A stretch of 64,000 nt of DNA from Balamuthia mandrillaris (Eukaryota > Discosea > Longamoebia > Balamuthiidae): assembly GCA_031835245.1 (NCBI GenBank), contig JAVKOQ010000025.1, positions 55,001 to 119,000 of the forward strand, read 5' to 3'. A program made the translations under genes and the position numbers. The notes under the pieces are model-generated. The model saw only the letters and a list, made by a program, of their open reading frames with translations, was not told the origin of the DNA and ran no database searches. Below are positions 12,432-20,400 of the stretch, piece by piece (within the stretch, counting starts at the first letter, position 1; every line of letters starts with the position of its first letter).

Positions 12432-12452
12432 TCTCTCTCTCTCTCGCGTTCG
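12182..12452. promoter_or_regulatory. Spacer with CT microsatellite and kinase promoter
   Basis: 270 bp between the calpain-III/VCA gene (3' end) and the kinase gene (5' end), both minus-strand. A (CT)n run sits at about 12398-12444, in the 3' flank of the calpain-III/VCA gene and therefore purine-rich in its sense. The AT-rich part at 12200-12290 precedes the kinase start. No recognised promoter element. Confidence 0.4.
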
Positions 12453-13943
12453 CTAGTCCCACTCGCCATCAAAGCCATCTTCATCCTCGTCGTCGCTCAT
12501 CTCAATGGCTTCCCTGCGTGCAGTGATCTTTTCCATGTTGAAGGAGAAAGTCGAAGTCTTGGGCGGCGGTGGAGCCAGCACCCTGTTGGCCGCGGATTTG
12601 AGCTTATGACCTCCCTTCAGGAGATCAGTCAACATCTGCTCGCGCGGAGAGACGGCTGGTAGCTCTTTGGGACTAGCTTTCTTCAGGCCGGCTGCAGCGG
12701 CAGCCAAGTTGGTGGAGAGGCCCCCATCTTTGTTGTTGAAGGAGATTAATGGAGGAGGAGGTGGGGGAGAGGCACCTGCGGAGGAGGATGGAGGGGGAGC
12801 GATGGTGGGGGGAGGAGGCGGAGGAAGCGCGGATGGTGTTGAGGACGGAGGTTCCGGTACAGAGGACGTGGTTTGCTTGTTAGCGTTAGCGCGTTGTTGT
12901 TCTAGTTCGGAGAGAGCTTGAGAAAGTTGGTTGCGAACTTGCTCCAATTCTTTCTTCAACTCTGCAACCTCGTCCTTTAGGCGAGCATTTTCTGCCCGTG
13001 CTTCGGTATCTTCTACTGTTACGCTTGGAGGAGGAGCTGCTTTCGTCGATGCCTGTTCTTCTGGTTTAGCTTCTCCTTGCGGTTGGCCACCTTCATTGCC
13101 AGAGGTGCTTTGGTTCGCCTCGTTGCCGTCTTCAGCAGAACTGGATGGCTCGGCGATGTCTGCGGTTGCTTGTGACTCCGTTGCTGCTTCTTTCTGTTTC
13201 TCTGGTTCGGTCTCCTTGTCTTCTTCGTGTTGTTCCTTTAGCTCTTCTTTCGGCGTTTCCACATTGCTGCCCTTCTCCGCATCGACCTCTTTGTCAGATG
13301 ATTCCTGTTGCTGTTCTTCCTCTCCAGACTCCAGCATCTGTATGTAGGGTGTATAATCCACCTCATCCAAGGAAAGCTTTTCTCTGTCCTCCTCGCTGGT
13401 AAACACCTGCACATAAAAAGGCCCTTCATGGCCCGCGTGGAAGGTACATGGCGTGATGATATAGGGATGTTCATCCGGCTCTAAGCTCATTTCCAACGCA
13501 ACTGTATAATAGAACGTGTGCGTATACAACGACGTACAGAGTGAAAGGGTAAGACGATATTTTGTTTGTGGAAGTAAAACGAGTACATACCAGAAGGTGC
13601 TTCCTCAAAGTTGGCCTTGCCCAAGAGATCTTCCGCACTTTGCAGCTTCGGGAATCCCCACTCTTTGTTTCAACGACCAGTTAACAAATGAGACGAGAGA
13701 AAGAAAAGATAACACGCACTATCTCCTTTAGTTACATAGAATCCAATAGCTTCCCATTCCATTTGTTTTGGGTTTTCTGAAACCTGAACCAGTAGGATGG
13801 TAGCTTTACAAGCCTGTTTAACAGTAAGAGCCAAATGTGGGTTTTGATTCCAGGTCGAGTTGTTCATACAACCACCTGACGTTTCTGCAGTCCATTGATC
13901 CTATTACAACGCCATTCGTTTCAGTAAGGTCTGTTTCTACGAG

Positions 13944-13982
<39 letters not shown>

Positions 13983-15215
13983 GATACCACAATGATAATA
14001 GGAGGTGCAGCTGCAATAGGCACGAAGGTGACACCTTCTGACTCAGGAGCATAGCAAGTGATGACGTAGGGGTGCTCTTGTCTGGGGTAGAATAAGCATG
14101 GAATAATCACATACACTCGTCCTGCTTCCGCATTAAATTCCGTTGACACTGTTGGTGTTTTATTTTTTTTAAAAAAAAGTCGTTTTAAAATGAGAATCTC
14201 GAACGGAGAGCGAAGAAAAAAAAACAAAACAAAAGCAACTAGACGAACCATCCTTTTGCCTTCGGAATTTGCCTCTGGCAACAATTTCAGTTTCTTTGGC
14301 TGAGATGATAGATCTGGGTTGTTCATCTTGACCAGAAACAAGTGGTAAGTTAGTGTATGTGCATACGGAAAAATGAGGTGGAATGTGAACGACAATAAAA
14401 TCATTCTTTTTACCTCCTGTGTCGATCACGTAGAAACCGATGCTCTTCATATTTTCTCTGTCACGAGGTTGGGCCAACAATACATTGACAACAGTGGATT
14501 TCTCGGACTTGAAAATATATTGTGGGTTGTTTCTCCAAGTTTCGAAACTCATGCATCCGCCACCAGTGATGGCATTCCATTCTCCCTTTATGGTTGAAAA
14601 ATCAGTATACCTTTTCAGCAACATCCAAACCTAAACGGAAAAAGAAAGAAGAGAAACCAAAAAGAAGAACTGAGCAACTTACAGGAAGAGAGTAAGCAGA
14701 TAGAGGATCATCGCAAGGCCGAATGCTAAAGTTGTCTTCATTTCCCTCTCCTCTGGCAAACAAAGACAAGGTGTAGTCAGCCTCCATGTGCGGCTCAAAG
14801 GCGCAAGGCAAAAGAATGTAAGGATGTTCAGAAGCTTCTAATGTCACTTCGTTTGAGACTGCACGCAATAAAGCATTTAGCGTTTGCTTTGCACGTTTAT
14901 GAAAGAAACAAAGCGTACGTACTTTCTTTGGCTTCAAAGAATCCAGACTTGTAGACCAGATGCTCTCGCTTGACTCTCATTCTTCGCAAGCCTTTGAAAA
15001 AGGAATATAAATCGTTTTGTCCAATAGCACTTTTTTTGAGAAAGATTCGTAGTACCCTTATCACTTTTCAGTATATAATATCCAATTGAAATGGCTTCCT
15101 CGTCAGTACGAAGTTTGATGGTAAGAGTCATAGTTTCTTTCACTGTGAGGAAATATTGTTGATTGCTCCGCCAGCTCGTATGATTCCTGTGGAGAGGGAG
15201 GGAGAGGGAGAGGGA

Positions 15216-15267
<52 letters not shown>

Positions 15268-16858
15268 ATATAACAGAGGACAGGAAGTGTGTTAAAAGGT
15301 GCAATACCAAGAAATGAGGCGTAGGTTATACTAACATGCATCCTCCAGCAGTTTGTCCTCTCCAACTTCCCTACACATCAAATGAATGGTCAGTGCGTAA
15401 TAAAACAAAAGGTTGGGATAATAAAACCTCCATAGTGATGCCTTGACTGGCTCCTAGCTCGTTTAATTGAATGGGATTATCACTGAGAATTTTGATGGTA
15501 AACTTGGCAAGATAGTTTGGGTCAAAAGTGCATGGCACCACAACGTAGTGTCCAGCAGGCAAAATTAACCGCATATCGACTGATGAGAGAGAGACAGAGA
15601 GAGAGAATTAACATCACAGCAACAAGCTTTAAATGAGGAAGTATATGAACCTTCTTCATGGCTAGCAAATCGGGACTTGCTTACAACCGACTCGTTTGTC
15701 ACATTCACCAGCTTTTTCGTAACTCGATCTGGTCAAAAGAAAAAACAAATGAACAATGAAGAAAGAGAACAAGAAAACAACAAACACCTCACCTTCGCAT
15801 TGGATAATATAAAGACCCAACGAATCAAAGTCATCTTTTTCGCTTTGCAGCAGGGTTACATTGACGTCCGTTTTCTTTTCCAAAGAAAGCAGAAACTGCG
15901 GATTGTTCACAAACGTGAGGTTGTTCTTGCACCCTCCCGCAGTCTCCTCCGTCCACTGACCCTCTGCTATGGCCTCATCCCACTTACGACGTTTGGTCAG
16001 TCCCTCCAATAAGATGGGGGCAGAGTTGGAAGTGACCGTCAGGCGGAAGGAACCCGCCTCCCCCTCATCGAATGTACAAGGGATGATGATGTAGGGAAGT
16101 TCTGTTCCTTCTACCTCCATCGTAGTTGTGACTGTTTTTTAAAAAGAAAAAATGAGTTGGAAGCCAAAAAAAAAGAGAAGTTTTTGAATTAGCGTACTTT
16201 GCTGTCGCACACCGAAAGAGGTCTTTGCCAACAACAGAGAGTGAGGCTGGCCTCCCATCAGCTGACGTCCCGTGCCTGAAATATATACCCTCTGTAAACA
16301 TCAAAGAAAACTCTAGCCTTTCAAAAAAAAAAATGTTGAGTTCGCACCATCGCTCTTAAGCACGTAAAAGCCAATGGCGACCTGTTCCTCTTCTGGATTG
16401 TCCTGCTCCAACACAATGTCGATCTGGGTGGTCTGCGGTGCGCTCAAGAAGAACTGTGGGTTCTTCTTCCAGCTGGCGGTGTTGAAGCAACCTCCGTCCG
16501 TCTGGCCTTTGACCCACTGTCCTGGGAGCGTGAAGCTCAACGCTGGCTCCGGTATCATATCTTCCTCTTCTTTATTCGCTTCTCTCTCTTTCGCTTTCTT
16601 GCTTTTCTTGCCGCTCTTCTTCTTGGAAGATTGTTTACCAGCTCTGGGGGAGGGCTCGCCTGCAGCTCCTGCGGCGGCTGCAGCCTCCTCCTTTTTGTTG
16701 CTGTTGGCCTCCTCCAAACGAGCCAAGCGTTGGAAGAGCTCTTCGATCTGTTTTTTCTGCTCCTCGATCGTGCGGGTGGCCTCTCTGAGCTTTTTCTTGG
16801 TGGCCTTGTGCTCCTTTTTGGCTTGGGCCAGCTTTTCCTCGGTCGTAGCTTTTGGCAT
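12453..16858 (-). CDS. Five-repeat calpain domain III protein with WH2-acidic (VCA-like) tail
   Basis: Fifteen exons (16858-16348, 16275-16198, 16131-15793, 15728-15651, 15579-15428, 15370-15336, 15186-15056, 14991-14923, 14858-14683, 14585-14414, 14299-14249, 14148-13988, 13900-13720, 13662-13591, 13501-12453) give an unbroken 1084-aa frame. Residues 1-60 form a coiled coil and 75-100 a Lys-rich linker. Five calpain domain III (C2-like) modules follow at about 110-240, 246-386, 387-523, 524-651 and 652-775. Each has a GxW...GGC...W..NPQ half and an E.PYIIIPCTF half. There is no protease core. After an acidic stretch come a coiled coil (900-942), poly-Pro (953-987), a WH2-like motif (MLTDLLKGGHKLKS, 1024-1040), a basic-amphipathic segment and an acidic end finishing GEWD. 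That order matches the VCA module of Arp2/3 activators. Inferred role: Ca2+/lipid-responsive actin nucleation; the C2-like function is not shown. Confidence 0.8.
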
Positions 16859-16882: not shown

Positions 16883-16934
<52 letters not shown>

Positions 16935-17483
16935 AGAGATAGGCAGACACCAAACCAGAAGAAGAAGAAGAAGAAGAAAAAATAGCGTTGTTGTTAGTGC
17001 GTAGGCGTTGGGAGCCACCAAAGCCAAACATGTCAGAGCAACAACCAACTTACTTGTTTTTTTTTTAAAAAAATACAGTTCTTTGTGTCTGTCAAAAATA
17101 CAAAGAGAGCCGAGCGGAGAGGTGCGCGTAGGACTAAATAACAATTTTTTTAACAAAAAAAAAAAGAGGAACAGCTTCCTCAGCGGGGTTGTCTTGCAAG
17201 CCTCCGCCCTTTGAGTGACTTTCAACCAAGCGAAAAAAAAAAAGGTTTTGCGTACTCCCCCCCGCTGTGTCCTCCTTGTATTTTTATTTTTCTTTGCTTT
17301 AATACGTCGTTGTGCTTTGTTTGAATGCTGGTTGGTCGGACACACGTCAGCACTCCCCGAAATGTTAATTCCCACTATAACCCCGGAACGAATCCCATCG
17401 CTTGCAATTTTGTTTTTTGTTTTTTGTTTTTTCACACGAAAAAAAAAAAGAAACAGTTTTGTTTTTTTTAAAAAAAGACTTTG
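16859..17483. promoter_or_regulatory. 5' region of the calpain-III/VCA gene with GA microsatellite
   Basis: 625 bp between this gene's start and the stop of the LRR-PP2C gene. It holds a (GA)n run at about 16884-16939, a GAA run at 16961-16978, and several T/A homopolymers. The longest ORF, about 266 codons on the minus strand, is built on repeats and reads into the neighbouring gene; it was not accepted. It probably holds a promoter and 5' UTR. Confidence 0.4.
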
Positions 17484-20400
17484 TCAAGGAAGCTCCACCA
17501 CCATCACGCTGATGTTGTCGGAACTGCCAAGAAGGAAGGCGAGGTCTCGCAATGCGGTGGCAGGAGAGACGTGACCTTCTATATCATACATAACGCCCAC
17601 TCCGCTTCCTCCATCCCGCTCGTTCTCATCCTCCATTTCCTTCTCGCCCTCGCAAGAAGAAGAGGAGGAGGAAGAACAAGAAGAAGAGGAGGAAGCAGGA
17701 GAAAGGAAAGGAGAAGGTGAGGGAGAAGGTGAAGGCGAACGGGAGGTTGGTGATCTTGTGGCTTGACCCTCGCGACCTATCTTCACAGAGCAAGTCTTCA
17801 GCACAATATTTACAGCGTCTTGGTCTGAGACCTCGTCCCATAGTCCATCACAGGCCATGATAAGAAAGCGAGGGCCTCTTGCTGAGGAAGAAGAACCGGA
17901 TACCAGGTTTACTCTGGTGCGAGAACGGTTTCTCTTAATGCGCCGAGGGCCGCGTCTTGCGCCTCTTCGCATGTGGCCGCCGCTGCTAGAGTCGTAGAGG
18001 GGTATTCTGTACACTTGGGGTTCGCACGTCACAAAAGGTTTGCATTTGGCATCTCCTAACGATCTGCTCACCGCCAAATCGTTTTGAACTCGTCCTATAA
18101 GTAAAATAGATATATTAGAACTACCGGTTGGCAAACAAGGAAAATCATGAAGAAAGAAAGGAAGAACGAAAAAGAAACCTTTTTCAGAGACAAAGCCACC
18201 AAGGCTCATGATACGATCCCGCTCCGAAGCAATAAACGGCGTATGATCCCTAGAAATTCTCTCCGCCACCCCGCTCATTCCTCCTCCATTCCCTCCTACG
18301 CTTCCATCCGATGATGCCTCACCCCATCCATTACAAAGAACAGCACGTGAATCACCAGCGTTGGCCACCCACAAGGCTCCTTCGTCGAGAGAGAGCCAAG
18401 CCACGTTGGCGGTGCAGCCTGACTCTGTACCCGATTGAAGGATGAGCTCGTCCAACTTGGCAAAAGTCTTGAGCAGTACTCGATCCATGTCGTCCCATTC
18501 GTTTATCTCATCTTCGTCGTCCTCGTCATTATACCGTTGTTTGCTTAGTTTCGCCATTTGTAACCTTTTGTCTCTTTTGTTTAACTGAGTATTTGTTGTC
18601 ATTTTTTTAGATGTTAGTCATACATAGAACGGAGAATGGAGAAAACAGAAAATAAGCATAAGAGAACAGAGGGAAAATAGCAAGAAGAAGGCAAAGAACA
18701 AACCATTTGCTCCAACACACCGCTTAAATGGATAGCAGCAAGTTCAGCAGCTTTGCTGCCTCCGTGCCCATCAAACACAGCAAACACGTATTCGTTGGGA
18801 TTACCTCGAAAATTCTTGTGAACCAATATTGTGTCTTCCATTTCGCCTCGATTGCCTCTCATCTCCGCCCAAGTTACGTAAACGCTTGGCGCAGGGGTGA
18901 ATCCACCATCAACTCGGTCAATATTTTCTCCACCTTTCTCTTTCTCTTTTTCCTCTTCTCCTCCATCAGAAAGAGAAATAGTAGGAAGGCCTGAAGACGT
19001 TGATGAAGTAGAAGATAAAGAGGAAGGTGTATCAGGTGACACAGTGACAGAATGTTCCGTGAGGTTGTGCAGGTCAAGAGGAACCCCTTCTTCTCTTTCT
19101 ACCCCATTACCGCCAGCAGTGGGGGATGGTGCTTTAGGCCGAGGAGGATTAAAAGGATTTCCAATAGTGCTAAACCAAGAGAGAGAATGTTGCGTGGACA
19201 ACTGGCGAATGTCGTTCCAAGGCACAGCACTGTAGGAGACGTTACAGTAGGATATTTTGAGATGGGTCAAACTGGTGAGCCGAATCAGGTCTCCTGGCAA
19301 GGTGGAGAGAGAGGGATTGGCGGAGAGGTCCATTTCGACCAGACGCCCGAGGCCGGCAAGGGACTGAGGGCAGGCGCTGAGCTGGTTGTAGGAGGCCTCC
19401 AACTCACTAAGGCAGTGCAGCATGTCTAGCTCGTCGGGCAGGGAGGTGAGGTTGTTGTCCGTCACGTCCAATACTTGTAGGTTGACTAACTTGCCTATGT
19501 CTGGTGGTAGCTCTGCCAAAAGGTTGCCTGAAAGGTAGAGATGCTGTTTTCGAAGCAATGGAGTGAGATGCGTTCAAACAACCACAGTAAGTAAAGGTAA
19601 GATGTACTTTTAACCAAGGTAACTGGAACACGCAGGTCGGGATTGACTTGAGGCGATTTCCTGAAATGGCAAGTACTTGCAGTGTGGTGAGATTGCAAAT
19701 GGAGTCGGGCAGAGTGGTCAGCTTGTTGTAGCCCAAGTACAACCTCTCCAGCCCCACCAAGTTGCCAATCTCCGAAGGAATCTCTGTGATTATGTTTCCG
19801 GCTAAGCTTAGGCGGGAGAGACTTGTCAAGAGAAAGGCCTCTTTGGGGAGAATAGAGATGAGATTGAGGCTCATTTCCAGTTCTTTGAGTTTGGTCAACT
19901 CTCCGAGGCAGGGGGCGAATTCTTTAAGCAGGTTCTTCCGAACATCCAACTGGCCTAGCCGTTGAAGGTTGCCTAAGGTGGGAGGCAGTTCCTCCAAAGC
20001 GTTATCTTGTACGGCAAGGACCAGCAGGTTTTCCAGCTTGCCGATGCTGTCGGGCAGGTGGCTAAGTTGATTGGATCCTAGGTATAGTCTTTGTAGCCGG
20101 TCCAAGCACCCTAACTCGTTAGGTAGACTACGCAGTCTAATAAAGATTGCATTAAAAGGCTTAGTTTAGGGTGTATTTCGTTCCTTTTGTTTCTCTCTTT
20201 CTCATTGCCTCTTTGATGACGTACCTGTTTTTGGAGAGGTTGAGTTCTGCAAGGGATGAAAGCGAAGAAATTTGTGGAGGAAGCGAAGTGAGGAGGTTGG
20301 CACGTAGGTTAAGTTTGCCAAGGTTTTGCAGCATGCCAAGTTCTGGCGGGATGCTCGTGAGCCGGTTATTATCCAGTTCGAGTTGGGTTAGAGCGGTGAG

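Follow-up and report, generated by a model that had tools for sequence, protein, structure and literature searches.

A candidate class I Arp2/3 nucleation-promoting factor with an N-terminal calpain-III array in Balamuthia mandrillaris

In the present study, a stretch of 64,000 nucleotides (nt) from the amoeba Balamuthia mandrillaris (contig JAVKOQ010000025.1, positions 55,001 to 119,000; hereafter the window) was analysed, and attention was focused on a single gene on its minus strand, QOT17_004017 (12453..16858; 15 exons, 1093 amino acids (aa)). The predicted protein joins an array of calpain-III modules to a proline-rich region and to a tail composed of a WH2 (V) motif, a central (C) motif and an acidic (A) end, the VCA arrangement of the WASP family. 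On the basis of the sequence, the gene very probably encodes a class I nucleation-promoting factor (NPF) with a presumed ability to activate Arp2/3, and would represent a new WASP subfamily in which the calpain-III array acts as the N-terminal targeting domain. The preliminary description of this DNA had proposed a VCA-type tail on a calpain-III array and a possible undescribed class of NPF, and this proposal is supported by profile searches with their controls, by predicted helices and by conservation in 17 proteins; such a class is probably what the gene represents.

The calpain-III array and the VCA tail

First, the N-terminal and middle parts of the protein are dominated by calpain-III modules. 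Five Calpain_III stretches were recognised by Pfam (PF01067, E-value 1.9e-78), and nothing else exceeded the cut-off in the full 1093 aa, neither Peptidase_C2 nor another protease domain, which confirms the five modules without a protease core that had been read earlier. On the minus strand, these are module 1 (aa 113-236, 16013..16522, bounds by eye on the PF01067 match), module 2 (aa 254-374, 15464..15961, best Pfam stretch 253-366), module 3 (aa 387-512, 14716..15370, from Pfam and sequence), module 4 (aa 524-650, 14018..14585, from Pfam, with a calpain-7 structure aligned to residues 520-636) and module 5 (aa 661-782, 13389..13900, from Pfam and sequence), the end of which is within the last exon. 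Calpains were the only matches of the whole protein in the PDB at E 0.01, and module 2 matched domain III of calpain-1 and calpain-2 with E-values from 4.8e-12 to 5e-9. Neither a WH1 nor a Rho-GTPase-binding domain (GBD) was found by Pfam in the 1093 aa, and the same search returned none of the subfamily-specific N-terminal domains of WASP (WH1/GBD), SCAR, WASH, WHAMM and WAML, with the coverage of each by a Pfam model left unchecked.

Second, the part behind the array has the order proline-rich region, V, C and A, in this protein and in all 17 members of the family described below. The proline-rich region (aa 958-997, 12744..12863) was read from the sequence. The WH2 motif SPREQMLTDLLKGGHKLKSA (aa 1029-1048, 12591..12650) has the layout MLTDL-(6)-LKSA, with hydrophobic helix positions, a linker and an LKKV-like motif, and the family profile aligns it with the WH2 of N-WASP, WAVE1 and Spire. 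The central motif FSFNMEKITARREAIEM (aa 1063-1079, 12498..12548) aligns with the central region of WAVE1 and N-WASP; its pattern F...M..I..RR..I.M, compared with I...V..I..RR..V.Y in WAVE1, contains the spaced large hydrophobic positions, the R/K doublet and a closing hydrophobic residue, and its spacing is that of WAVE1, not that of the general pattern in PMC3298513, in which the spacing is strictly three residues. The acidic end SDDEDEDGFDGEWD (aa 1080-1093, 12456..12497), seen in the sequence and in the family alignment, closes with GFDGEWD and has a penultimate Trp. The coiled coil, poly-Pro stretch, WH2-like motif and acidic GEWD end noticed earlier are all present, with the WH2 now placed at aa 1029-1048. 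Upstream of this WH2, a possible degenerate first WH2 GLSTNLAAAAAGLKKA was observed (aa 1005-1020, window 12675-12722). An LKK-type element ahead of the WH2 is kept in 13 of the 17 members, better preserved in P0003 and P0014 than in Balamuthia, and is perhaps a worn first WH2.

Third, the tail resembles known VCA regions in searches that did not depend on our own motif patterns. The WH2 and C patterns were drawn up after the family had been seen, and the first C pattern, which missed P0014 (a motif one residue shorter), was loosened for the scan of C-termini; therefore, profile searches were taken as the main test. A profile of eight family tails (alignment A2), built without any WASP sequence, gave 14 matches in the PDB at E <= 10, namely one kinase (0.87) and 13 WH2/VCA proteins: N-WASP, WAVE1, WAVE2, Spire, WASL chimeras and, counted here as a protein of this type, VPA1370. 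Nearly the whole V-C-A was covered in one N-WASP sequence (1.1e-7) and in three WAVE1 sequences (4.7e-7). As a control, the same eight tails were cut to 78 residues and reversed, and no match was obtained in the PDB.

Consistent results were obtained within the Balamuthia genome. When 70 residues of the tail were compared with the genome at E <= 10, the self match (1.9e-42) was followed by contigs C4 (0.0072), C64 (0.185) and C186 (0.461), the last in a frame that contains a stop. The genes on C4 and C64 have Pfam WH2 matches over the cut-off and N-terminal parts similar to WAVE1 (PDB search, lowest E-values 1.4e-9 and 3.1e-8), and are therefore regarded as SCAR/WAVE genes; thus, the tail by itself singled out two SCAR tails, though weakly. 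These two SCAR/WAVE-type genes (L010 at C4:378626 and L011 at C64:80876) have full VCA tails. A profile of ten family tails scored the C4 and C64 tails at 43.8 and 34.7 bits, against a maximum of 12.0 in 20,000 shuffles. A profile built from the 16 members other than Balamuthia gave the Balamuthia tail 68.3 bits, with a maximum of 11.2 among 20,000 shuffles of that tail. A profile built from the C4 and C64 SCAR tails gave it 22.8 bits, with a maximum of 13.2 among 20,000 shuffled family tails.

Structure prediction of the last 78 residues alone (AlphaFold2, single sequence; mean pLDDT 69, pTM 0.23) gave two helices, one at aa 1030-1040 in the WH2 and one at aa 1067-1078 in the C motif, the latter lying in the block of highest pLDDT (87). 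A WH2 helix near aa 1024-1040 had been suggested beforehand as a structural check, with its absence as a counter-argument; since a helix is predicted at aa 1030-1040, this counter-argument does not apply.

Distribution of the family and phylogeny of the array

Three protein searches, each of which scored approximately 8000 candidates sharing most words, returned 12, 18 and 65 matches and together 72 different proteins. In 17 of these 72 proteins, a calpain-III array is followed by poly-Pro, WH2, C and A, and the named members, Balamuthia, Stereomyxa and Arcella intermedia, all belong to Amoebozoa; the same architecture in other amoebae, proposed earlier as a check, was accordingly found. According to Pfam, members have 3 to 7 calpain-III modules. 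Every member has poly-Pro and an acidic Trp end: of the last 22 residues, 9 to 14 are acidic, and the Trp is one of the last 7 (17/17). The Trp is aligned in all eight tails of the family alignment. The closest named relative is a Stereomyxa protein from the MMETSP collection, which presumably holds transcriptomes; it has the same layout and 44% identity over the last 78 aa. Balamuthia is classified in Amoebozoa, Discosea, Centramoebida, Arcella in Tubulinea and Stereomyxa in Amoebozoa incertae sedis; thus, with Arcella and Balamuthia, the named members cover two amoebozoan phyla.

The relationships among the arrays were examined in an unrooted maximum likelihood tree (32 rows, 647 columns), in which the VCA proteins were represented without their last 170 residues. 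The rows were 17 VCA, 8 kinase, 4 dictyostelid and 3 RhoGEF proteins, and a quicker tree of 33 rows added P0020; neither tree includes the kinase rows P0033, P0035, P0040 and P0050 or any protease calpain. In the 32-row tree, a single branch separates the 17 VCA members from all other rows (bootstrap 98, SH-aLRT 89), and these members split into three well-supported groups. The VCA and RhoGEF-PH proteins form a larger group (98/94), followed by the kinases, and the dictyostelids are kinase-type proteins only. The quicker tree showed the same grouping for the labelled rows (SH-aLRT 93). These sequence relationships fit a single joining of array and VCA with subsequent inheritance, and losses in other groups are possible in an unrooted tree. 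Eight proteins of 442-785 aa (P0019, P0020, P0021, P0022, P0032, P0042, P0044 and P0047) have calpain-III only by Pfam, without VCA, and look incomplete.

Several other proteins with such arrays were observed. In P0015, P0016 and P0039, the nearest group to the VCA proteins on the array tree, the calpain-III modules precede a RhoGEF domain, to which P0015 adds a PH domain; P0016 apparently ends at the start of the RhoGEF. P0009, a Balamuthia protein named 'Constitutive triple response 4', has an array and a C-terminal protein kinase. In the Balamuthia assembly, contigs C41 and C235 (L003/L004) have calpain-III matches with identical scores and spacing, and C404 and C58 (L014/L015) encode near-identical WH2 proteins; both pairs are probably haplotype copies or recent duplicates.

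Contrary observations and alternative explanations

Several observations weigh against the assignment as a class I NPF. The tail alone gave weak results in the PDB, with six matches at E 10 or better and E-values of 0.12-0.85 for the best five (Spire WH2, 0.12; WAVE1, 0.39-0.58; N-WASP chimeras, 0.77-0.85). The Pfam WH2 model had no match on the Balamuthia tail at E 10. At E 1 it matched 32 places in the genome, this site being absent from them, and at E 0.05 it matched no full-length member of the family (0 of 17, Balamuthia included). The linker of the WH2 exceeds by one residue the 4-5 residues given for most WASP-family WH2s in PMC3298513, and only 7 of the 17 family tails were lifted above all 20,000 shuffles by the two-SCAR profile. 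The organism is named for 3 of the 17 members only. Finally, in the 33-row tree, P0020 (592 aa, calpain-III only), which had been omitted from the 32-row tree, is inside the VCA group beside Balamuthia and Stereomyxa, and is either an incomplete sequence or a case of VCA loss. On short family tails at E 1, the Pfam WH2 model matched three of eight (best 0.0012), that of Balamuthia not being among them; because this WH2 escaped detection when Pfam was used alone, Pfam was not relied on for the motif.

The low detectability and the long linker of the Balamuthia WH2, together with a central-acidic part that is more alike across the family than the WH2, could be explained if the tail binds an actin monomer and Arp2/3 but mainly inhibits, recycles or clusters them, as a CA-type competitor or a cortactin-like class II factor. 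We consider this improbable, however, as the WH2 is canonical in the relatives P0005 LFDQIRKGTSLKTA and P0006 LLDQIRVGTSLKSA, and the V-C-A order after poly-Pro is found in 17/17 members, as in class I factors.

It is still less probable, indeed very improbable, that the acidic Trp end and the basic helix arose by chance or by convergence as a linear motif at the end of a low-complexity scaffold protein, with no role at Arp2/3. Acid-rich and proline-rich tails are common, and the relaxed WH2 pattern alone occurred in 13-129 of 2000 shuffles of the tails and in 4 of the 55 other retrieved proteins. The WH2 and C patterns together, however, which are post hoc patterns, were found in exactly 17 of the 72 C-termini and in none of the other 55, and in 0/2000 shuffles for nine of ten tails and 1/2000 for one. 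In addition, a profile built without N-WASP and WAVE1 matched both with a clean reversed control, and the tail is kept across the three deep groups of the array tree. An artefact of gene model or assembly, with two adjacent genes fused, can practically be dismissed: the model is a prediction in a region rich in GA repeats, but one unbroken exon runs from the end of module 5 through the complete VCA, so that the tail was not acquired from a neighbouring gene via a wrong intron, and the same layout is present in 17 proteins, including the one from the Stereomyxa MMETSP set.

Proposed mechanism

Herein, we propose how a calpain-III-fronted class I NPF might work. The usual N-terminal targeting domains in the position of the array are WH1, the SCAR homology domain, WAHD and IMD. 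Through the array, the protein would be docked to a membrane or to a partner, and the site of branched actin would thereby be determined. Two likely coiled coils, read by eye before and after the array, suggest dimers, and might bring copies of the protein together: one is at aa 4-50 (16709..16849, minus strand), and the other at aa 909-951 (12882..13010, minus strand), where coiled-coil Pfam models match below their cut-offs. Two VCAs per Arp2/3 give the best activation. The poly-Pro stretch may feed in profilin-actin or recruit SH3 proteins. The WH2 would load an actin monomer, following the working of the WASP family as given in the available part of PMC3298513, and the central helix and the acidic Trp end would bind and switch on Arp2/3, producing branched actin at the site of the array. 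The Arp2/3 subunits ARPC2, ARPC3, ARPC4 and ARPC5, the four that were searched, are encoded in the Balamuthia genome beside the two SCAR/WAVE genes, and the target of the VCA is therefore very likely present in the host. The related RhoGEF arrays hint at a possible co-recruitment with Rho signalling. In this scheme, Arp2/3 activation, dimerisation, the binding target of the array and the control of the switch are what we infer.

Sensing of Ca2+ by the array had also been suggested in the preliminary description, and for this no support was obtained. In conventional calpains, domain III has a long acidic loop with a role in Ca2+ binding. In fish calpain-1 (P0063, P0065 and P0066), an EEDDDPDDDE loop follows the first strand pair of domain III, whereas with a crude pattern restricted to the loop site, which failed to detect several modules and 4 of the 10 calpains, no counterpart of this loop was found in any of the five Balamuthia modules, where the turns are short. 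In stretches of 24 residues, the Balamuthia modules contain 6, 6, 4, 3 and 1 acidic residues, mostly further on, past the next strand, compared with 9 in the three fish sequences; among the relatives, a short EEDGE turn occurs in one module each of P0005 and P0006. Since short turns replace the EEDDDPDDDE-type loop, control by Ca2+ via the classical route appears unlikely from these sequences.

A broader hypothesis may also be put forward, for which we see the chances as evenly divided. These proteins might form an undescribed, deeply rooted amoebozoan subfamily of WASP-type Arp2/3 activators, the array being a general targeting platform that came to be combined with three outputs, namely VCA for branched actin, RhoGEF-PH for Rho activation and a protein kinase, and the RhoGEF and VCA members, neighbours on the array tree, might be two halves of one actin-control circuit at the same sites, independent of targeting by WH1 or the WAVE complex.

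The gene model and its surroundings

The gene model was rebuilt from the start codon at 16858 to the stop codon that ends at 12453. The 15 exons counted previously proved correct, and all 14 introns, of 57-149 nt, are GT-AG. The spliced product of 1093 aa is identical to P0001, the NCBI entry 'hypothetical protein QOT17_004017 [Balamuthia mandrillaris]', and the earlier figure of 1084 aa was nine residues too few. An alternative acceptor of exon 10, which would give 1108 aa, was dropped because its 15 additional residues are missing in P0001 and in the relative P0002. Exon 15 (12453..13501, minus strand) is an open, intron-free frame of 1049 nt, which encodes the end of module 5, an acidic low-complexity linker, the second coiled coil, poly-Pro, VCA and the stop.

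GA/CT dinucleotide arrays flank the gene directly past the stop (12400-12445) and directly upstream of the start codon (16884-16939), and others are found in introns 12 (13941-13979) and 6 (15192-15258). At 11470-11926, a 457-bp array of approximately 87 GAAGA units is located between two pieces of a minus-strand protein-kinase gene (Pfam Pkinase in 11966..10992), and probably sits inside an intron of that gene. The next gene on the other side (17484-19573, minus strand) encodes a PP2C phosphatase (Pfam E 1.2e-32), apparently with leucine-rich repeats ahead of the phosphatase (19573..18614, by eye).

Comparison with known systems

According to the available part of PMC3298513, the WASP family is defined by a VCA region after a proline-rich region, and its subfamilies are distinguished by the part ahead of the VCA; the protein with a calpain-III front end would therefore be a new subfamily. 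The word calpain is absent from the main text of that paper. The calpain survey PMC3563603, as far as its accessible text goes, gathered genes with a protease core and excluded a Dictyostelium calpain-like protein, and its main text contains neither 'actin' nor 'WH2'. In the available portions of PMC12050087, PMC5461030 and PMC11673790, 'calpain' was not found, and no calpain-III/VCA protein appeared in the titles or abstract beginnings of the open literature among the matches listed.

Within the WASP family, a distinct front end has so far gone together with a distinct location and signal for branched actin. If our interpretation is true, calpain-III modules would gain a role outside proteases, and an Arp2/3 activator would be added to surveys of amoeboid motility that, in the available part of PMC5461030, counted WASP and SCAR in amoebae. 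Locomotion of Balamuthia is by lobose pseudopods (PMC11673790, available part). The present analysis ties the gene to no disease, and is concerned with an organism that, as background, is a human pathogen.

Among the known NPFs, the protein resembles SCAR/WAVE (class I) in its poly-Pro, one clear WH2 and acidic end with Trp, in an equally spaced central motif (I..RR.A[IV]E.SD) and in that the SCAR genes of its own genome are the best non-self matches of its tail; unlike SCAR/WAVE, no SCAR homology domain was seen, the whole protein matching only calpains in the PDB at E 0.01, and the calpain-III array is present instead. The VCA behind a proline-rich region is shared with WASP and N-WASP, and the family profile covers the N-WASP VCA from end to end, whereas WH1 and GTPase-binding domains are absent from the Balamuthia protein by Pfam. 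A WASP-family VCA on an unusual N-terminus is also known from the amoebal WAML and WAWH (Kollmar et al. 2012, PMC3298513), but WAML has an IMD and WAWH is without WH1, in contrast with the calpain-III array of Balamuthia. The same type of array is found with a kinase (P0009 of Balamuthia, P0007, P0017 and P0018) or with RhoGEF-PH (P0015 and P0039), proteins that differ in having a kinase or a RhoGEF, and no VCA, as output domain. Similarly, the dictyostelid proteins annotated as 'calpain-like cysteine protease' (Heterostelium and Cavenderia) also have calpain-III repeats without a protease core, but they carry a protein kinase domain, N-terminal in Heterostelium P0011, and no VCA.

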